From assembly GCA_951828385.1 (NCBI GenBank), contig OX639973.1:3277200-3341199 (forward strand): a stretch of 64,000 bases of DNA. Direction: 5' to 3'. This document shows, piece after piece, positions 1,056 to 39,570 of the stretch. Below the pieces are notes generated by a model. The model saw only the letters and a list, made by a program, of their open reading frames with translations, ran no database searches and was not told the DNA's origin. The first letter of the stretch is position 1. Every line of letters begins with the position of its first letter. Source of the stretch: an uncultured Poribacteria bacterium. Lineage in GTDB: Bacteria > Poribacteria > WGA-4E > WGA-3G. Both the position numbers and the translations under genes were made by a program.

Positions 1056-1838
1056 ATGCAAAAAGAAAATCACGGATTATCTGAAACTCTACAACCTATT
1101 CCCGACAGGTTGGTTGTCCTCACCTTTGATGATGGTAACAAGTCAGATTATACTTACGTTGCACCGCTGTTGCAGCGTTACGGTTTTGGGGCGACTTTTT
1201 TCATCACGGAAGGTCTCAATTTCCTCAATAACAAGGCACACTATGTCACGTGGGAAGAGATCCGTCAATTGCACGAGGCAGGTTTTGAAATAGGTAACCA
1301 CACCCGTCATCACAAGCATACCAACACACAATCGAAAGAGGAATTGCTGGCAGACTTGATACACATCGATGAACGATGCAAAGAATATGGTATCCCTGTC
1401 CCTGAGACCTTTGGCTATCCGGCAGATTGTCGCGGCCCGGAAGCGATAGAAGCGTTGTCAGAAAAAGGGTATCGTTTCGCTCGGCGTGGCATTGGCCCGG
1501 AGTTTCCATTTCATCCAGAGGGCGGACGTGGACCGGCTTACGATCCGGATGTCCATCACCCGTTGGTCATTCCGTCAGCAGGTGTCCCCGGTCCGAACTA
1601 TGGGTTCGAGGATTTGGTATGGGCGGTTGAACAGGCAAAGGACGGAAAGATCGCAGTCCTGACATTTCATGGTGTGCCTGCCGTTGAACATCCATGGGTT
1701 GATGTCTCTCCCGAACAGTTTGAGACGTACATGAATTATCTGCGTGACAACGAGTGTACCGTTATCGCGTTGCGCGATCTGGCTAAATACGTTGATGCCT
1801 CAGAAACAACCGGGAAAAGTATAACGTATTGGCCGTGA
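1056..1838 (+). CDS. Polysaccharide deacetylase (NodB homology domain)
   Basis: A 260-residue carbohydrate esterase family 4-like protein. The first catalytic motif is LTFDDGNKSD near residue 22, which supplies the base and a metal-binding aspartate. The metal-binding histidines lie in GNHTRHHKH near residue 75. A later TFGYPADCRGPEA stretch and LTFHGVP near residue 200 match the downstream motifs of the family. No signal peptide is apparent, so the protein is probably cytoplasmic and may act on small sugars or amides rather than cell wall polymers. Such PuuE-like members are common. It follows the PhyH gene by 8 bases. Confidence 0.88.
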   Translation: MQKENHGLSETLQPIPDRLVVLTFDDGNKSDYTYVAPLLQRYGFGATFFITEGLNFLNNKAHYVTWEEIRQLHEAGFEIGNHTRHHKHTNTQSKEELLADLIHIDERCKEYGIPVPETFGYPADCRGPEAIEALSEKGYRFARRGIGPEFPFHPEGGRGPAYDPDVHHPLVIPSAGVPGPNYGFEDLVWAVEQAKDGKIAVLTFHGVPAVEHPWVDVSPEQFETYMNYLRDNECTVIALRDLAKYVDASETTGKSITYWP

Positions 1839-1997
1839 GAGTTGAGGTATCGAAAACGAAAGTTGCACGATTTTACACAAGTGTATGTTATGACAGCTGC
1901 GCAAAAGGTGCGCGAAATCGCGTAAAAATTAGGCAGAAACGCCGAAGTGTTCCGAAAAAAGACTTGTGCCTCCAAAAAAGTGCTAAAATTTTGAGAA

Positions 1998-2072
1998 TTG
2001 CGTCTTTTTTATCTAAAATTATGCATTTTTTTGACAATTTTATTTGACAAAGCAATTTTAAGCGTGTATAAT
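1998..2072 (+). promoter_or_regulatory. Consensus sigma-70 promoter of the 16S rRNA gene
   Basis: TTGACA at 2044-2049 and TATAAT at 2067-2072 are separated by exactly 17 bases, a perfect consensus, with TG one base before the -10 hexamer. The 45 bases upstream are strongly A/T-rich and resemble an UP element. The rest of 1839-2000 shows a small gcgc/gcgc hairpin but no gene. Confidence 0.9.
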
Positions 2073-2103
2073 TAACATTACCTTTCGACAAGGAAGGTGG
2101 ATT

Positions 2104-2134
2104 TGTTCTTTGAAAGTTAAATAGTTTATACGTG
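2104..2134 (+). other. 5' strand of the pre-16S processing stem
   Basis: Bases 2112-2127 (gaaagttaaatagttt) are an exact 16-base reverse complement of 3867-3882 downstream of the 16S gene. Outward, after a 3x3 internal loop, 2104-2108 pair with 3886-3890. Inward, 2131-2134 pair with 3858-3861. This is the architecture of an RNase III processing stem that loops out the complete 16S rRNA. Confidence 0.85.
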
Positions 2135-2161
2135 ACGTGCCTAAAATAGCTTGTGAGTGCA

Positions 2162-2225
2162 CTTCAAATTCGTTTGAAGATGTACTTCAATGAAATTGGG
2201 AGTACCCTTCAAATTCGTTTGAAGG
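2162..2225 (+). repeat. Two UUCG-capped hairpins in the 16S leader
   Basis: The 18-base sequence cttcaaattcgtttgaag occurs at 2162-2179 and again at 2207-2224. Each folds into a 7-bp stem closed by a UUCG tetraloop; the second stem gains one more pair at 2206/2225. Both lie between the processing stem and the mature 16S 5' end. Confidence 0.85.
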
Positions 2226-2239
2226 TGTGCTACAATACT

Positions 2240-3799
<1,560 letters not shown>

Positions 3800-16058: not shown

Positions 16059-16671
<613 letters not shown>

Positions 16672-34622: not shown

Positions 34623-35138
34623 TTAGTTCCTAAACGCATTCGCAACAATCACTAAATCTTGGATATTCACAACACCATCACCATTCAGGTCGGGTTCTGC
34701 TTCGCCAAACGCATTTGCCACTGCCACTAAATCAAGAATGTTGACGACACCATCGCCAGTCACATCCGCAGGATTGCTGGCTTTTAGTTGCACTTCATCA
34801 TATTCAAATTCAACGAGATCCAAGGCGAGTAGGGGCGCAATGTTTTTCACCGGATTATCTGTGATATTGAGTGCTTCTAAAGCGGGTAAGTTCAATATCG
34901 GACTAATGTTTGCAACAAGGTTGTTGTTAAACCGTAATTCCTGAAGATTTATCAAATTTTCTATGGTGCTTATATCCTCAATCAAATTATTATCAATCTC
35001 TAACTTCTCCAATTCCGTAAGATTTCTGAGTGGGGTAATATCGCTGACTTGATTGTTACCAAAGTTGAGTCGCGTCAGGTTTAGCAGATTCGCAAGCGGA
35101 CTAACGTCTGTAACAAGGTTATTGTTAAATAGTATCAA
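34623..35138 (-). pseudogene. 3' part of LRR-dockerin gene split by the DUF1670 element
   Basis: Encodes the C-terminal LRRs (NNNLVTDVSPLANLLNLTRLNFG onward) and two dockerin-like calcium repeats (DVTGDGVVNILDLVAVANAF and DLNGDGVVNIQDLVIVANAF). The true gene part ends at 35129, next to the element. Joining its codons to those at 37150 through one copy of TTTA restores INLQELRFNNNLV without a gap. The apparent start codon lies inside the element. Confidence 0.85.
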
Positions 35139-35269
35139 ATGACCATAGGATAGCTGGAAGGTTGATGTTTATTGACTTCCCAGCGATGGTTTCTCAGTGG
35201 GTTGCGTTGGATTCGCTGGCATCTTCATTGAAAAATGATGTGCTGAGCGATCCACACGTCTAAAGTATA

Positions 35270-35325
35270 GCAAAACCGGGAAACGACTGTCAAGCGTATT
35301 TTTACAGAAGCGGCTCCGGTTTTGC
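35270..35325. repeat. Inverted repeat inside the element
   Basis: gcaaaaccgg (35270-35279) pairs perfectly with ccggttttgc (35316-35325). It lies just past the 3' end of the second DUF1670-like gene and could act as a terminator or a transposition signal. Confidence 0.65.
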
Positions 35326-35360
35326 CAAGTCAAATGGGTTAGGAACAGGAGGTTAGGGTA

Positions 35361-36248
35361 TCATTGGGTTTCTCCTTGCTCTGTCGCGTTATCGTTTGCG
35401 GCTGAATTGGCGAGGTTTGCATCTATGGCTTGGAGTTGGTGCTTGGGAATCAGGTCGAGATATTGAGAAATGACGCGTCTCGAAAGTCGTGTAATCTGTG
35501 AGATGTTGTCAATATCAGCGGTTGCCTTGCGAACGACTTTGACGATCTCATAGTCGCGAATGTATCGGTCAACTGCTTCTTTAGAGTGCTTGGTTTTCGC
35601 AGCAATACTCGGGGTGAGATGTCCTTGAAGATAGAGGGTTATGATCTCTTTCTTGTGGGTAATAGCCCCCGATAAATCATGGATATTGCCCCGAGTGGGC
35701 AGGATTTCGCCAGTGGTCTTTTGCCACTCATTGACATAATCACAGACGACAGCATCACAGACATTGAGCAAGACGGCTAAGTCGAGTTGTGTCAATAAGG
35801 CCCCTTGGTCATAAGCTTGATGACACCAGCGAACCAAGCGATTGATCCGCAGTGGTTTCCGTGAGGTAAAACCGTTGCGAAAGGATTCAATATCCTCTGT
35901 GGCGAGGTATGTCAGGATGATAGGTTTCATACGCGTTTTGATGATGGATTTTCCTCTTTCAGGGTGTTCCTCAATAGGTACAGCCATCCAAACGAGGTGT
36001 CCATAACTCAGCAACCGTTCATCAGGGAGTTGATCCCCCGTGGCGAGTTTCTCCAAAGGGAGGGTAATCACGAAATAGTCCTCAACGGTCGTAAGAATAT
36101 CATCAACAATAGCGGTAGCCGTGACTTCGCCTTTGTCATAGCCATAGTCATTGAGAAAGCGATGGATCAGCAGCTGGCGTAGCGATTTATCGTTGATGCG
36201 TCTGAACTTCTTCTCGTTGATCTGCGTGCGCGTCAAAGGTTTGCTCAT
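35361..36248 (-). CDS. DUF1670-like protein, element gene 2
   Basis: 295 residues, mainly helical and basic. INRLVRWCHQAYDQGALLTQLDLAVLLNVCDAVVCDYVNEW (about 135-175) reads like a helix-turn-helix. It is followed by GNIHDLSGAITHKKEIITLYLQGHLTPSIAAKTKHSKEAVDRYIRDYEIV, a second HTH. These features match the DUF1670 family as I remember it. The start ATG overlaps the stop of the first element gene by four bases (ATGA), so the two are translationally coupled. A role in mobilising the element is inferred only from location. The C-terminal tail is Asn/Ala/Gln-rich. Confidence 0.75.
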   Translation of the reverse strand: MSKPLTRTQINEKKFRRINDKSLRQLLIHRFLNDYGYDKGEVTATAIVDDILTTVEDYFVITLPLEKLATGDQLPDERLLSYGHLVWMAVPIEEHPERGKSIIKTRMKPIILTYLATEDIESFRNGFTSRKPLRINRLVRWCHQAYDQGALLTQLDLAVLLNVCDAVVCDYVNEWQKTTGEILPTRGNIHDLSGAITHKKEIITLYLQGHLTPSIAAKTKHSKEAVDRYIRDYEIVKVVRKATADIDNISQITRLSRRVISQYLDLIPKHQLQAIDANLANSAANDNATEQGETQ

Positions 36249-37045
36249 GAGAGTTCCCCCTTTTTTGGATCCGCTGGTTCTGGGTGAAGGCGCTCGGTCA
36301 TTCGGTCCGTGTTCTGGTATTCCTTATACAGCGCGAGATACTCGCGTATGAGTCGGTCGGAGAAGTGAGTGATGAGCCGTATCTGTGCGTCAGGAAAGCC
36401 TTGATGATGCAGTGTTGCGACTTGTGTGAAGTCTTTCAAGTACCGCCAGACAGCGCGTTCAGAGTGGTTCGTCTTTTGCTCAATCTCGGTGAAGGTATAC
36501 GCCTTGAAATACAACTCCAAGATCTGGGTTTTATGGGACGTGCCGGGGCCCATGTCGTGTTTTGCCCCGCGCGTCATCACGAAATAGCCGGCCTGCTTTA
36601 ACGCTCGGATGTCGCGTTTGACAGTGGCGGGACTGGTGGTTAATAACACCGCCAGATCCTCATGACTCAACAAGGCCTCTTGGTCATAAGCTTCTTGGGT
36701 CAATCGGAGGATGCGATGGCGTCTGAGTCCTGCAAGCCCATAAGTGCCTAAGACTTCAAAGTCCTCCTGAATGGCATTGAGTGTCAACCGACAGGAGACT
36801 TTTCTCGCTAAAGCGATGTGTTTACCTGCGGGTTCCTCGGCGGCGACGGCTTCATAACAGATTTGCCCGGATGTCAGTTGCACATCGGCGTGTTGCTCAA
36901 AGTAACTTGAAATCTGTTTATAGTAGGCTTCAGCAACGATAGGCATAAGATTAAAGTCTGCTGAAATCTTCTGAATAATCGCAGCTCTTGCGTTCTTGGA
37001 TTCGAGTCGTTTGATACCATAGGCGGTATCATTTTGGCGTGTCAT
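36245..37045 (-). CDS. DUF1670-like protein, element gene 1
   Basis: 266 residues from ATG 37045, which GGAGGTC precedes closely; ATG 37057 is the longer alternative. LRRHRILRLTQEAYDQEALLSHEDLAVLLTTSPATVKRDIRALKQAGYFVMTRG (about 105-160) contains a DeoR/HTH-like segment. It is followed by GPGTSHKTQILELYFKAYTFTEIEQKTNHSERAVWRYLKDF, a second HTH. It is a diverged paralogue of the next gene. No catalytic acidic triad of a DDE transposase is evident. Confidence 0.75.
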   Translation of the reverse strand: MTRQNDTAYGIKRLESKNARAAIIQKISADFNLMPIVAEAYYKQISSYFEQHADVQLTSGQICYEAVAAEEPAGKHIALARKVSCRLTLNAIQEDFEVLGTYGLAGLRRHRILRLTQEAYDQEALLSHEDLAVLLTTSPATVKRDIRALKQAGYFVMTRGAKHDMGPGTSHKTQILELYFKAYTFTEIEQKTNHSERAVWRYLKDFTQVATLHHQGFPDAQIRLITHFSDRLIREYLALYKEYQNTDRMTERLHPEPADPKKGELS

Positions 37046-37128
37046 AGTGACCTCCATGAGTAGAGTATCGGTGATAAAAATACATCTACTTGTTAGGTTA
37101 ACGCATACTATTAGTGTAACTCATGGGG

Positions 37129-39528
37129 TCATTTGATACAAACTATAAACCGTAGTTCCTGAAGATTTATCAAATTTGCTACTGCACTTATATCCTCAAC
37201 CAAACTGTTATCAATCTCTAATTTCTTCAATTTCGTGAGATCTCCGAGCGGGGTAATATTACTTATCTGATTACTACCTAAATTGAGCCACGTCAGGTCC
37301 AGTAGATTCGCAAGCGGTGAAATATCGACAATCTGATTTTCGTTGAGCGTTATGTTATTTAGATGCACCAAATTCGCTAAGGGCTGTAAGTCTGTGATTT
37401 CATTACCACTTGCATCGAGATGTTTTAAGAACACCGCATGTTCTAAGCCTGTCAAATCACTTATCTTGAGCCCGTTAATGCTCAAGTCGCGTAATAATCT
37501 GACTTGATCTTTTCTAAGTGGCACACCCTCCGGTAACGCTACTTTTTCTCTGAGTTGTTCTGTTATTGCCATTCGCAGGTTTACATCGGGCATCCATTCC
37601 GTAGCATTTTCTGTGTTAGTGGTATCAAGGCCCACAACACCATCCTCTTTAAGGTCAACAATCTCGTCCATCTTCAAGTAGATCTCACCATCTAAATCTG
37701 CAAGGGTATGCGCGTGCCCTTTGATCCCACTTGAAAAGCCTGTTGTGCTTCCTATGAATTCAATCTGCTGCTCCTTTCCGGAGCGGTTATAGACCGTCCA
37801 GCCGTTGGTGAACTCTCGGACGAATACACCGTCACGGTTGTCGTAAAGTTGCCCTTTTGTTTCAGCACCGCCGACAGGACGACCCAACTCAGCATTCCAG
37901 AAATCATACCAAATACGATCTTTGTTACGATCAATGTCTTCTACCCCGAAGAAAAGATAACCGTCCGAGTGCGTGAGAGTCAATGTTGTAAAGACACGCA
38001 TCCAACGTTGACTCGTTGGACTCTCTGATGTACCGATTGCTATGCCCTGCAAAACGTTTATCTGTGGATAGCGTAGGTTTTCTTCATACCAGAGGAATGC
38101 TTCCTCTATATCAATGAGTTCACGATAGGTGTAGCCTGCTTCCTTGAGTTCAGGTCCCGTTTCAATAAAACTGCCGTTAACGTATTCAGTGAAACTTACA
38201 GGCTTTTGAATGCCAGCATTCACCAGAATTAGGAAATCTTCTGGCACTCGGAGACGTACTTCATGTAATATGCGTTTGTATGCTGCTCGGATTTCTTCAT
38301 CAGTCGCGGGGTGTAGTTCGCGTCCGATGAACCCGGCGCCGTCATTGACGAACCCATCAATAGCAATGCCATCATAAAGCCCACTTTTGGCGATACCAAC
38401 AATATGCTCTATGAGAATGTCTTGGACACGAGGCTTAACTAAGTCTATCTGATATTCCAACCACGGTTGATTTACGTCTTTGGCGACGATCTGTCCAGTA
38501 GCGTCCCTGAGCCACACGTCGGAATCTTCAGGGAAACCTCCGGCATGTGACGAGTAGAACCCGATACCAAACAGAAGTAGATAGTTTGGATTAATATCAA
38601 GTCGCTGTTGGTAGATCGCCGCTGCGAGGGCACACCTACCAGACAGTCGGTTTGCTAATCCCTCAGTCGGGCGATCTTCCGTGATATGAACCTCAATCTC
38701 TGCTGCTTGATAGGGTGTAAAATCATTAATATGAAGATCGTGATAAGTCTCACTGACTTCTCTCGGTAAATTTGTGACATAAAACCCTGATTGGGAGAGA
38801 GATGGGTATGTTCGGTTTAAGACCCGTTCCTCAATAGGTGGCGGGAACGGTGGATTTTCGCATACCTCCTCGTAGTGAAAAACGTCGATGTTCAAATGGC
38901 GTAAGGGTGCGATATCCTCATTGAAGTTCTCTTTCATGGAGAGTCGCTTTAATCGGGTAAGGTTCGCTAAGGGGCTGAAATCTGTGATGAAGTTGCTTGT
39001 CAGTCGTAGGTCTTCTAAAATCGTGAGATTGCTGAGGACGGATATATCCCGAATCTGATTATATTCAAGGTCCAACCAGCGCAATCCTGTTAGATTTTCA
39101 AGGGCTATAATATCGGAGATTTGATTTATCGATAAATTGAGGCGATGCAAAGTGGTGAGATTCGCGAGCGGTGAAATATCAAATATCTGATTTTCACGGA
39201 GTGATAAGGTATGGAGGCGAACTAAACCCGACAGTGGGGTTAAGTCACTGATTTGATTACTATCGCCATTGAAATCTTGCAAGTTGATTGCGTGTTCTAA
39301 GCCGGTTAGATCGCTAATATTGCTGTTCCGCACGTCTAAATGTGAAAGATATTTCAGATGTTCTTCGGTAAGTGGTGTGTGATCGGGGAGTCCAATCTCT
39401 GCTCGGAGTGTCTTCCTGATTGCCATCCGCAAATTCGGATCGGGGATCCAAACTTCTGCGAAAAGCGGACTGTTTATGATTGTAACAGCGAAGAAAGCAA
39501 AAGACAAAAGACAATTTCTTATTTTCAT
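37129..39528 (-). pseudogene. 5' part of LRR / glycosidase-like / LRR gene, split by the element
   Basis: Starts at ATG 39528 (MKIRNCLLSFAFF), with AAGGA upstream, and has a signal peptide ending at FAE. An LRR cap WIPDPNLRMAIRKTLRAE and about seven LRRs (to residue 220) are followed by a TIM-barrel-like middle domain with YDGIAIDGFVNDGAG and LILVNAG near 395-450, which resembles putative glycoside hydrolases. A second cap and LRRs begin at WMPDVNLRMAITEQLRE. The frame runs into the element after INLQELRF and stops in its terminal repeat. With the part at 34623 the intact protein would be about 960 residues. Confidence 0.85.
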
Positions 39529-39570
39529 ACGGATTTCCTTCATTTTTCTTTTTTCAAGTATCATTTTCTG

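Follow-up and report, generated by a model that had tools for sequence, protein, structure and literature searches.

The stretch of DNA analysed here (the window) comprises 64,000 nucleotides from an uncultured Poribacteria bacterium (contig OX639973.1, positions 3,277,200 to 3,341,199) and contains a mobile element of 2,018 bp whose only genes, A and B, encode two proteins of the family DUF1670. Our analysis suggests an autonomous, target-specific element of the insertion sequence (IS) kind, for which the two DUF1670 proteins probably serve as the recombinase. Comparing copies establishes the mobility of the element, its boundaries, target and orientation, and selection on both genes; catalysis by the two proteins we infer. 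The element has two unequal ends, a near-palindromic subterminal repeat and a fixed orientation.

Copies, ends and boundaries

That the element is mobile, as a preliminary description of the window made from its sequence alone had proposed, is evident from five near-identical copies in different flanks within its own genome (one contig of 6,656,312 bp, estimated to be 95% complete), and from 25 two-ended copies in 13 genomes of the Poribacteria group. Together with two partial copies (L098 and L100), these make up the 27 copies examined; the survey of ends leaves out the other contig edges of genome G005 and the relic L141. Copies with different ends, a possibility raised in the preliminary description, were not seen in Poribacteria: the inverted repeats are the same in 25 of 25 copies within two mismatches, being exact at both ends in 22 and inexact in L094, L095 and L097. 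By chance an isolated 13-mer, with two mismatches permitted, is expected about twice per window, whereas identical ends surround the five copies in the own genome, each 2,008 bp from repeat to repeat.

The distribution is patchy, with matches in 12 of 60 genomes among relatives and in 16 of 84 in the phylum. Eight gene pairs were found in genome G017, A being disrupted in one of them, and two in G032. One of the 25 two-ended copies, a deletion derivative of 1,042 bp (L101, 2823-3865), retains intact ends around the start of A fused out of frame to the end of B, and neither end was found in the relic L102. Three G005 contigs (C1, C12 and C184, positions 4-369) all begin at an identical point within a DUF1670 gene, as expected because assemblies break at multicopy repeats.

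In the window, the element lies within a leucine-rich repeat (LRR)-dockerin gene. Its 13-bp inverted repeats (GTATCAAATGACC) are exact, at 35132-35144 (+) and 37127-37139 (-), as had been described, and the claim that removal restores the reading frame is borne out: deleting 35130-37149 (2,020 nt, one TAAA retained) yields a single LRR-dockerin open reading frame (ORF) of 973 amino acids (aa) that ends at 34623. A 4-bp duplication, TAAA, had also been described; it is literally present at 35126-35129 and 37146-37149, but only 2 bp (AA) recur across copies, and the 4 bp are partly coincidental. The best boundary is 35129-37146, with AA on each flank, and it is preferred because, in the 27 copies, partial ones included, the base preceding AAA at the gene-side end varies and AA recurs on the far side. 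Empty sites, which the preliminary description had suggested collecting, are represented by a paralogous one: at 82% over 193 bp, the rejoined flanks align without gaps to the next LRR repeat along the interrupted gene, which reads GTTAAACCG. An orthologous empty site was not found; 33 of 38 genomes of the genus match the LRR gene, in relatives only partly, the best match being 69% over about 720 bp with greater identity over short stretches only, and none was used as an empty site.

The features of the window copy, with the evidence for each, are the following.

35129-37146, minus strand: whole mobile element, 2,018 bp, tips ATAG...CTAT, genes running right to left (same boundaries in the 25 two-ended copies)
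35127-35128, no strand: AA, left copy of the 2-bp target duplication, within the first TAAA (sequence and copy comparison)
37147-37148, no strand: AA, right copy of the 2-bp target duplication, within the second TAAA (sequence and copy comparison)
35132-35144, plus strand: left 13-bp inverted repeat, the B end, normally adjoining a sorting-domain gene as AAA-TAG-TATC (sequence and copy comparison)
37127-37139, minus strand: right 13-bp inverted repeat, the A end, preceded by a longer spacer, ATAGTTTG (sequence and copy comparison)
36245-37057, minus strand: gene A, DUF1670 protein of 270 aa (P0002; PF07900, E 1e-61; dN/dS 0.10-0.16 in seven comparisons)
35361-36248, minus strand: gene B, DUF1670 protein of 295 aa (P0001; PF07900, E 2.9e-59; dN/dS 0.06-0.10 in seven comparisons), overlapping gene A by 4 bp
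35145-35360, no strand: non-coding B-end region, 216 nt (at least 150 nt matched in 21 of the 27 Poribacteria copies, the window included)
34623-35129, minus strand: 3' part of the interrupted LRR-dockerin gene (rejoined ORF)
37150-39564, minus strand: 5' part of the interrupted LRR-dockerin gene (rejoined ORF)

The target at the end of sorting-domain genes

The B end adjoins the 3' end of a gene for a type IX-type C-terminal sorting domain in 23 of the 25 two-ended copies and in both partial ones, the target proteins ending like ..YFYTLTAGDFTATRKMLIRK. This target, the last lysine codon of such genes, was out of reach of the preliminary description because it had a single, off-target copy to work from. 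All 27 B ends read AAA-TAG, in which TAG is the tip of the element and acts as the stop codon, and outward from the A end the old last lysine codon and its stop (AA-R-stop) follow in 21 of 23 cases. The far-side codon is AAG in 12 of these 21 while the gene side reads AAA, which indicates that the third base is supplied by the element and that only two bases are duplicated (AA generally, CG in L221). The tip thus completes lysine and stop, and the host protein is therefore unchanged.

Sorting domains were assigned by C-terminal sequence, with Pfam and NCBIfam tested on samples only. FlgD_ig or Por_Secre_tail exceeded the curated Pfam cut-off in nine of ten sampled target tails (four of four in Poribacteria), and TIGR04183 exceeded that of NCBIfam in nine of ten of a partly overlapping set; the tail at L162 fell below the cut-off in both. 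In the own 6.66-Mb genome the pattern AARATGNTNNTNNNNAARTRR has 34 sites (none for the reversed control), and four of the five intact copies stand at these sites; the probability of a chance insertion at one of the 34 positions is about 5 in a million (34/6,656,312). As far as sequence comparison can tell, the site preference is targeting and not tolerance. Solitary B ends, standing at the 3' ends of sorting-domain genes, were observed at five more of the 34 sites (1200389, 1421809, 1935430, 2965701 and 5931609; two with one mismatch), and in several of them the sequence behind a tip of 12-13 bp is unrelated or only briefly related.

DUF1670 pairs at the same kind of target occur in Bacteroidota, Ignavibacteria and Neomarinimicrobiota. 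A contig scan gave 28 loci, labelled, besides Poribacteria, as Bacteroidetes, Neomarinimicrobiota, Chloroflexi, Ignavibacteria, Deltaproteobacteria and Methanosarcinales; the contigs that carry the Chloroflexi (L163) and Deltaproteobacteria (L166) labels measure about 3.2 kb each and may be mis-binned. In L166 (1641-2591) the pair adjoins a DDE (PF01609) transposase ORF and is perhaps inserted in that element. Among 395 genomes of the phylum to which the L162 host belongs, 12 have matches, mostly as pairs. Eleven loci outside Poribacteria were selected since their ends are recognisable by eye; among them the B end stands at a sorting-domain gene in eight of nine cases (L162 and L228 judged by sequence), with the B end of L164 adjoining a different gene that likewise ends Lys-stop, and a Lys/Arg codon plus stop follows the A end in nine of ten, the exception being L228. 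In L221 the last codon is arginine (CGA) and CGA replaces AAA at both ends, so that the duplicated dinucleotide follows the target. In a second type of element (L191 and L225; L223 by eye) the A end, not the B end, stands at the sorting-domain gene, and the type II element of L191 is immediately followed by a type I tip (AAATAGTATCAAATGATACCC), an arrangement that one insertion after another into a re-formed target would produce. L227, L230 and L231 are incomplete. The elements can be very compact: in L162 gene B is followed by about 20 bp and gene A preceded by about 50 bp, and in several phyla the same two genes stand alone between the ends. Inverted repeats around the non-Poribacteria pairs exceed all 60 resamples at 17 of 31 loci and the 95% level at 21 of 31, where the 31 include six copies of one archaeal element and two loci, L191 and L267, that beat the resamples through a segment other than the end repeat.

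Relatives also occur in archaea: 53 of 392 genomes in the phylum of the Methanosarcinales host match, 48 of them above the cut-off. Genome G868, a single contig of 5,751,492 bp that is probably Methanosarcina acetivorans (C2A), holds seven full copies of a 1.7-kb element (L281-L287), six about 100% and one 97% identical. All seven lie on the same chromosome strand, for which the chance is about 1 in 64.

Taken together, these features make the following mechanism the most likely one. Proteins A and B, both with winged-helix and helix-turn-helix (HTH) parts, would jointly form the recombinase, bind the near-palindromic subterminal repeats at both unequal ends, and insert the element in a single orientation with a 2-bp duplication, presumably by way of a 2-bp staggered cut. 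The preferred target in bacteria would be the DNA that encodes the last residues, K-M-x-I/L-x-K-stop, of type IX-type sorting domains, a motif that recurs in numerous genes of each genome. The tip on the gene side, (A)TAG, would complete lysine and stop, leaving the protein intact and re-forming the target, with the displaced lysine and stop lying beyond the far end. The target would be read by protein, since there is hardly space for a guide RNA in the small elements and no convincing RNA structure was seen in the B-end region.

The DUF1670 proteins and the source of recombinase activity

The preliminary description had taken the sole genes for two overlapping DUF1670 paralogues, and both proteins are clear members, scoring 200.5 and 208.6 bits against the PF07900 gathering cut-off of 25; A and B are 31% identical to each other. 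The ratio of non-synonymous to synonymous substitution (dN/dS) was computed between the window and seven chosen Poribacteria copies, three more distant comparisons being saturated, and the values, given in the list above, show purifying selection on A as well as on B in Poribacteria. Conservation was assessed in 92 proteins (46 A and 46 B), exclusive of exact duplicates and of copies at least 95% identical to those of the window. D99, R118, H175, H198 and Y206 are invariant and Y240 and K176 nearly so; R205 has conservation values of 0.93 and 0.96, and R163 of 1.00 in A versus 0.80 in B. The candidate active-site residues show complete or almost complete conservation across bacteria and archaea. 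AlphaFold2 models of the proteins contain helices and a beta hairpin, together with a winged-helix part and HTH parts.

The catalytic set of tyrosine recombinases is R-K-H-R-H/W-Y, and the conserved R118, H175, K176, H198, R205, Y206 and Y240 are at most reminiscent of it, with no match by hidden Markov model (HMM). Given these R, H, K, R and Y residues, a phosphotyrosine mechanism would be worth testing, and no more than that. Whether A and B represent a new class of recombinase built of winged-helix and HTH units, with an active site formed by D99, R118, H175, K176, H198, R205, Y206 and Y240, which would read export-tail DNA and insert harmlessly in the last codon, seems to us evenly balanced.

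A number of observations weigh against a targeted recombinase formed by A and B. HMM searches revealed no catalytic domain in either protein; above curated cut-offs they gave DUF1670, plus HTH_11 and HTH_24 for A. This agrees with the earlier statement that no known transposase domain is recognisable: no DDE family exceeded its cut-off (a single sub-threshold IS1-family line for A reached 12 bits versus 100), nor was a serine recombinase, HUH or tyrosine-recombinase domain recognised by HMM. The suggestion that predicted structures might disclose a nuclease fold was not substantiated, as no credible catalytic domain emerged. The models themselves are of middling confidence (predicted local distance difference test 79 and 73, predicted TM-score 0.49 and 0.47); Foldseek of A found nothing at E<=0.001 in PDB or in viral models; and the top VIA matches (Z = 6.5 for A and for B, VIA being the only fold search made of B) are to HTH or winged-helix parts. 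PHROGs likewise returned weak lines only, mostly regulators. As regards the target, two of the 25 copies are off-target, that of the window in the LRR gene and L093; in a matrix built from 25 sorting-domain sites the window site is in the top 2.3% of the window's AA sites, and L093 is unremarkable, 75% of AA sites scoring equally high. L087 (AATAAG) and L139 (AAATCG) are without the exact displaced lysine and stop, no target was identified in the Bacteroidota loci L222, L224 and L226, and the six G868 copies that were read stand in A-rich sites and not at sorting domains. Finally, clear inverted repeats are lacking around some archaeal pairs, and the loci outside Poribacteria that fall below the 95% level are unclear in this respect.

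Other candidates for kinship were rejected. The best Foldseek match of A to viral models had E 0.0023, and names of endonucleases and transposases appeared at E 0.003-0.1, with TM-scores of about 0.2 or less over the model. The first VIA match of B was topoisomerase VI A (Z 6.5, root-mean-square deviation 1.7, 62 residues); it was set aside because Z values below 8 are common and the stretch contains no tyrosine conserved at 93% or more. A sequence search of PDB gave a single match (E 0.12) that is not credible. For archaeal B, one PHROGs line was named HNH endonuclease (E 3e-4, residues 107-206), and further lines were named DNA transposition protein and excisionase (E 0.01-0.02). No relatives of P0002 and A1 were found among viral contigs, and none of P0002 among phages and plasmids.

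Among the alternatives, the one that survives best retains A and B as the enzyme and replaces staggered-cut transposition by integrase-like, site-specific recombination of a circle through a short matching core. It would account for the strict orientation and target and the 2-bp overlap, the junction derived for such a circle (CTAT-AA-ATAG) would be symmetric about AA, and the conserved R, H, K, R and Y residues recall the tyrosine-recombinase set; however, the 2 bp follow the target in L221, where CGA stands at both ends (a single case), and HMM searches of A and B yielded neither a tyrosine- nor a serine-recombinase domain. We consider this possible, though doubtful.

In the main rival, the two DUF1670 proteins would be cargo or have a regulatory role, and another recombinase would act in trans on the same ends. 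The lack of a known catalytic domain in A and B would fit this, as would the persistence of the ends around other genes: a unit of about 1.4 kb (L130, 2780-4222; own genome 5556281-5557716) has both ends, the same kind of target and a Transposase_31/YhgA-like (Rpn) gene instead of DUF1670. Such a gene also takes the place of DUF1670 in L132 (2787-3981), where only the A end was found. In L133 a gene with a serine-resolvase domain (PF00239) and a TnpB-type gene, an IS607-like pair at 1828-3574, stand beside a solitary B end, which makes the resolvase a candidate mover. That B end, however, is part of what is left of a unit like L130 (a match of 91% over 175 bp that runs to about 3400), and the IS607-like part has an end of its own, of which about 154 bp recur at window positions 16099-16251 (89%) and in L131 without the ends of the DUF1670 element; the resolvase was accordingly set aside as belonging to a separate insertion in the remnant. 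No other recombinase was found in the ten ORFs scanned beside solitary ends (a subset of the ORFs). A passenger role is also at odds with the purifying selection on A and B in Poribacteria and with the elements of several phyla in which the ends enclose these two genes and no others. We regard a trans-acting recombinase as unlikely.

RNA-guided targeting by a structured B-end region is more improbable still. Most Poribacteria copies retain the region, as listed above, and 231 nt that include it have a predicted fold of -68 kcal/mol, but 12 of 200 shuffles fold equally well (z-score -1.74), covariation gives no support (3 of 45 pairs with double changes in seven sequences), and L162, L163 and L165 share the target with only about 20-40 nt there. 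The 216 nt may be a terminator or a regulatory RNA; a hairpin near the end and a GCAAAACCGG stem are seen in it. The single, sub-threshold Rfam line (GcvB) fell in the flanking LRR gene and was taken as chance. Spread by homologous recombination among paralogous sorting-domain genes after one founding insertion would explain why most copies lie at paralogous gene ends, but is scarcely credible, as the target genes differ up to the last codon, the A-side flanks differ between the copies compared, off-target copies exist (the window's and L093) and the G868 copies occupy differing A-rich sites.

Relation to known mobile elements

If the DUF1670 pair is indeed the recombinase, a domain of unknown function that occurs in two domains of life would become a family of transposases in which no catalytic fold is recognised, present in multiple copies in what is presumably a cultured methanogen, the Methanosarcina acetivorans of G868. 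It would also define a new kind of safe harbour, namely the 3' end of an export-signal domain that is repeated throughout the genome and restored by the element itself, and domain-specific harmless insertion of this sort would be of practical interest. Among the open-licence papers searched, none names DUF1670 or its identifiers and none deals with this target. A passage in PMC3196728 concerns an IS5-family element. The enzyme would be new, subject to a possible entry in ISfinder, which lay outside the search.

The element has the general attributes of an insertion sequence, being multicopy, with defined ends, differing flanks and a target-site duplication. It resembles insertion sequences with DDE, HUH, serine or DEDD transposases in its small size, its inverted repeats and its restriction to mobility-type genes, but differs in carrying a two-gene DUF1670 pair in which none of these catalytic domains is recognised. 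Archaeal insertion sequences of the ISA1214 type also have two ORFs, but at a length of 1.2 kb and with a duplication of 8-12 bp they would differ from the element. A parallel in behaviour is Tn7, which inserts beyond the 3' end of glmS; Tn7-like transposons employ TnsA, TnsB and TnsC together with TniQ/TnsD, which chooses the target. Both enter at the 3' end of a conserved gene, in a set orientation and without harm to it, but no Tns-type Pfam match was obtained in the window element, which has only its two DUF1670 genes. Moreover, unlike the target of Tn7, that of the DUF1670 element is a domain repeated over many genes, to which the element itself supplies the last base and the stop codon.

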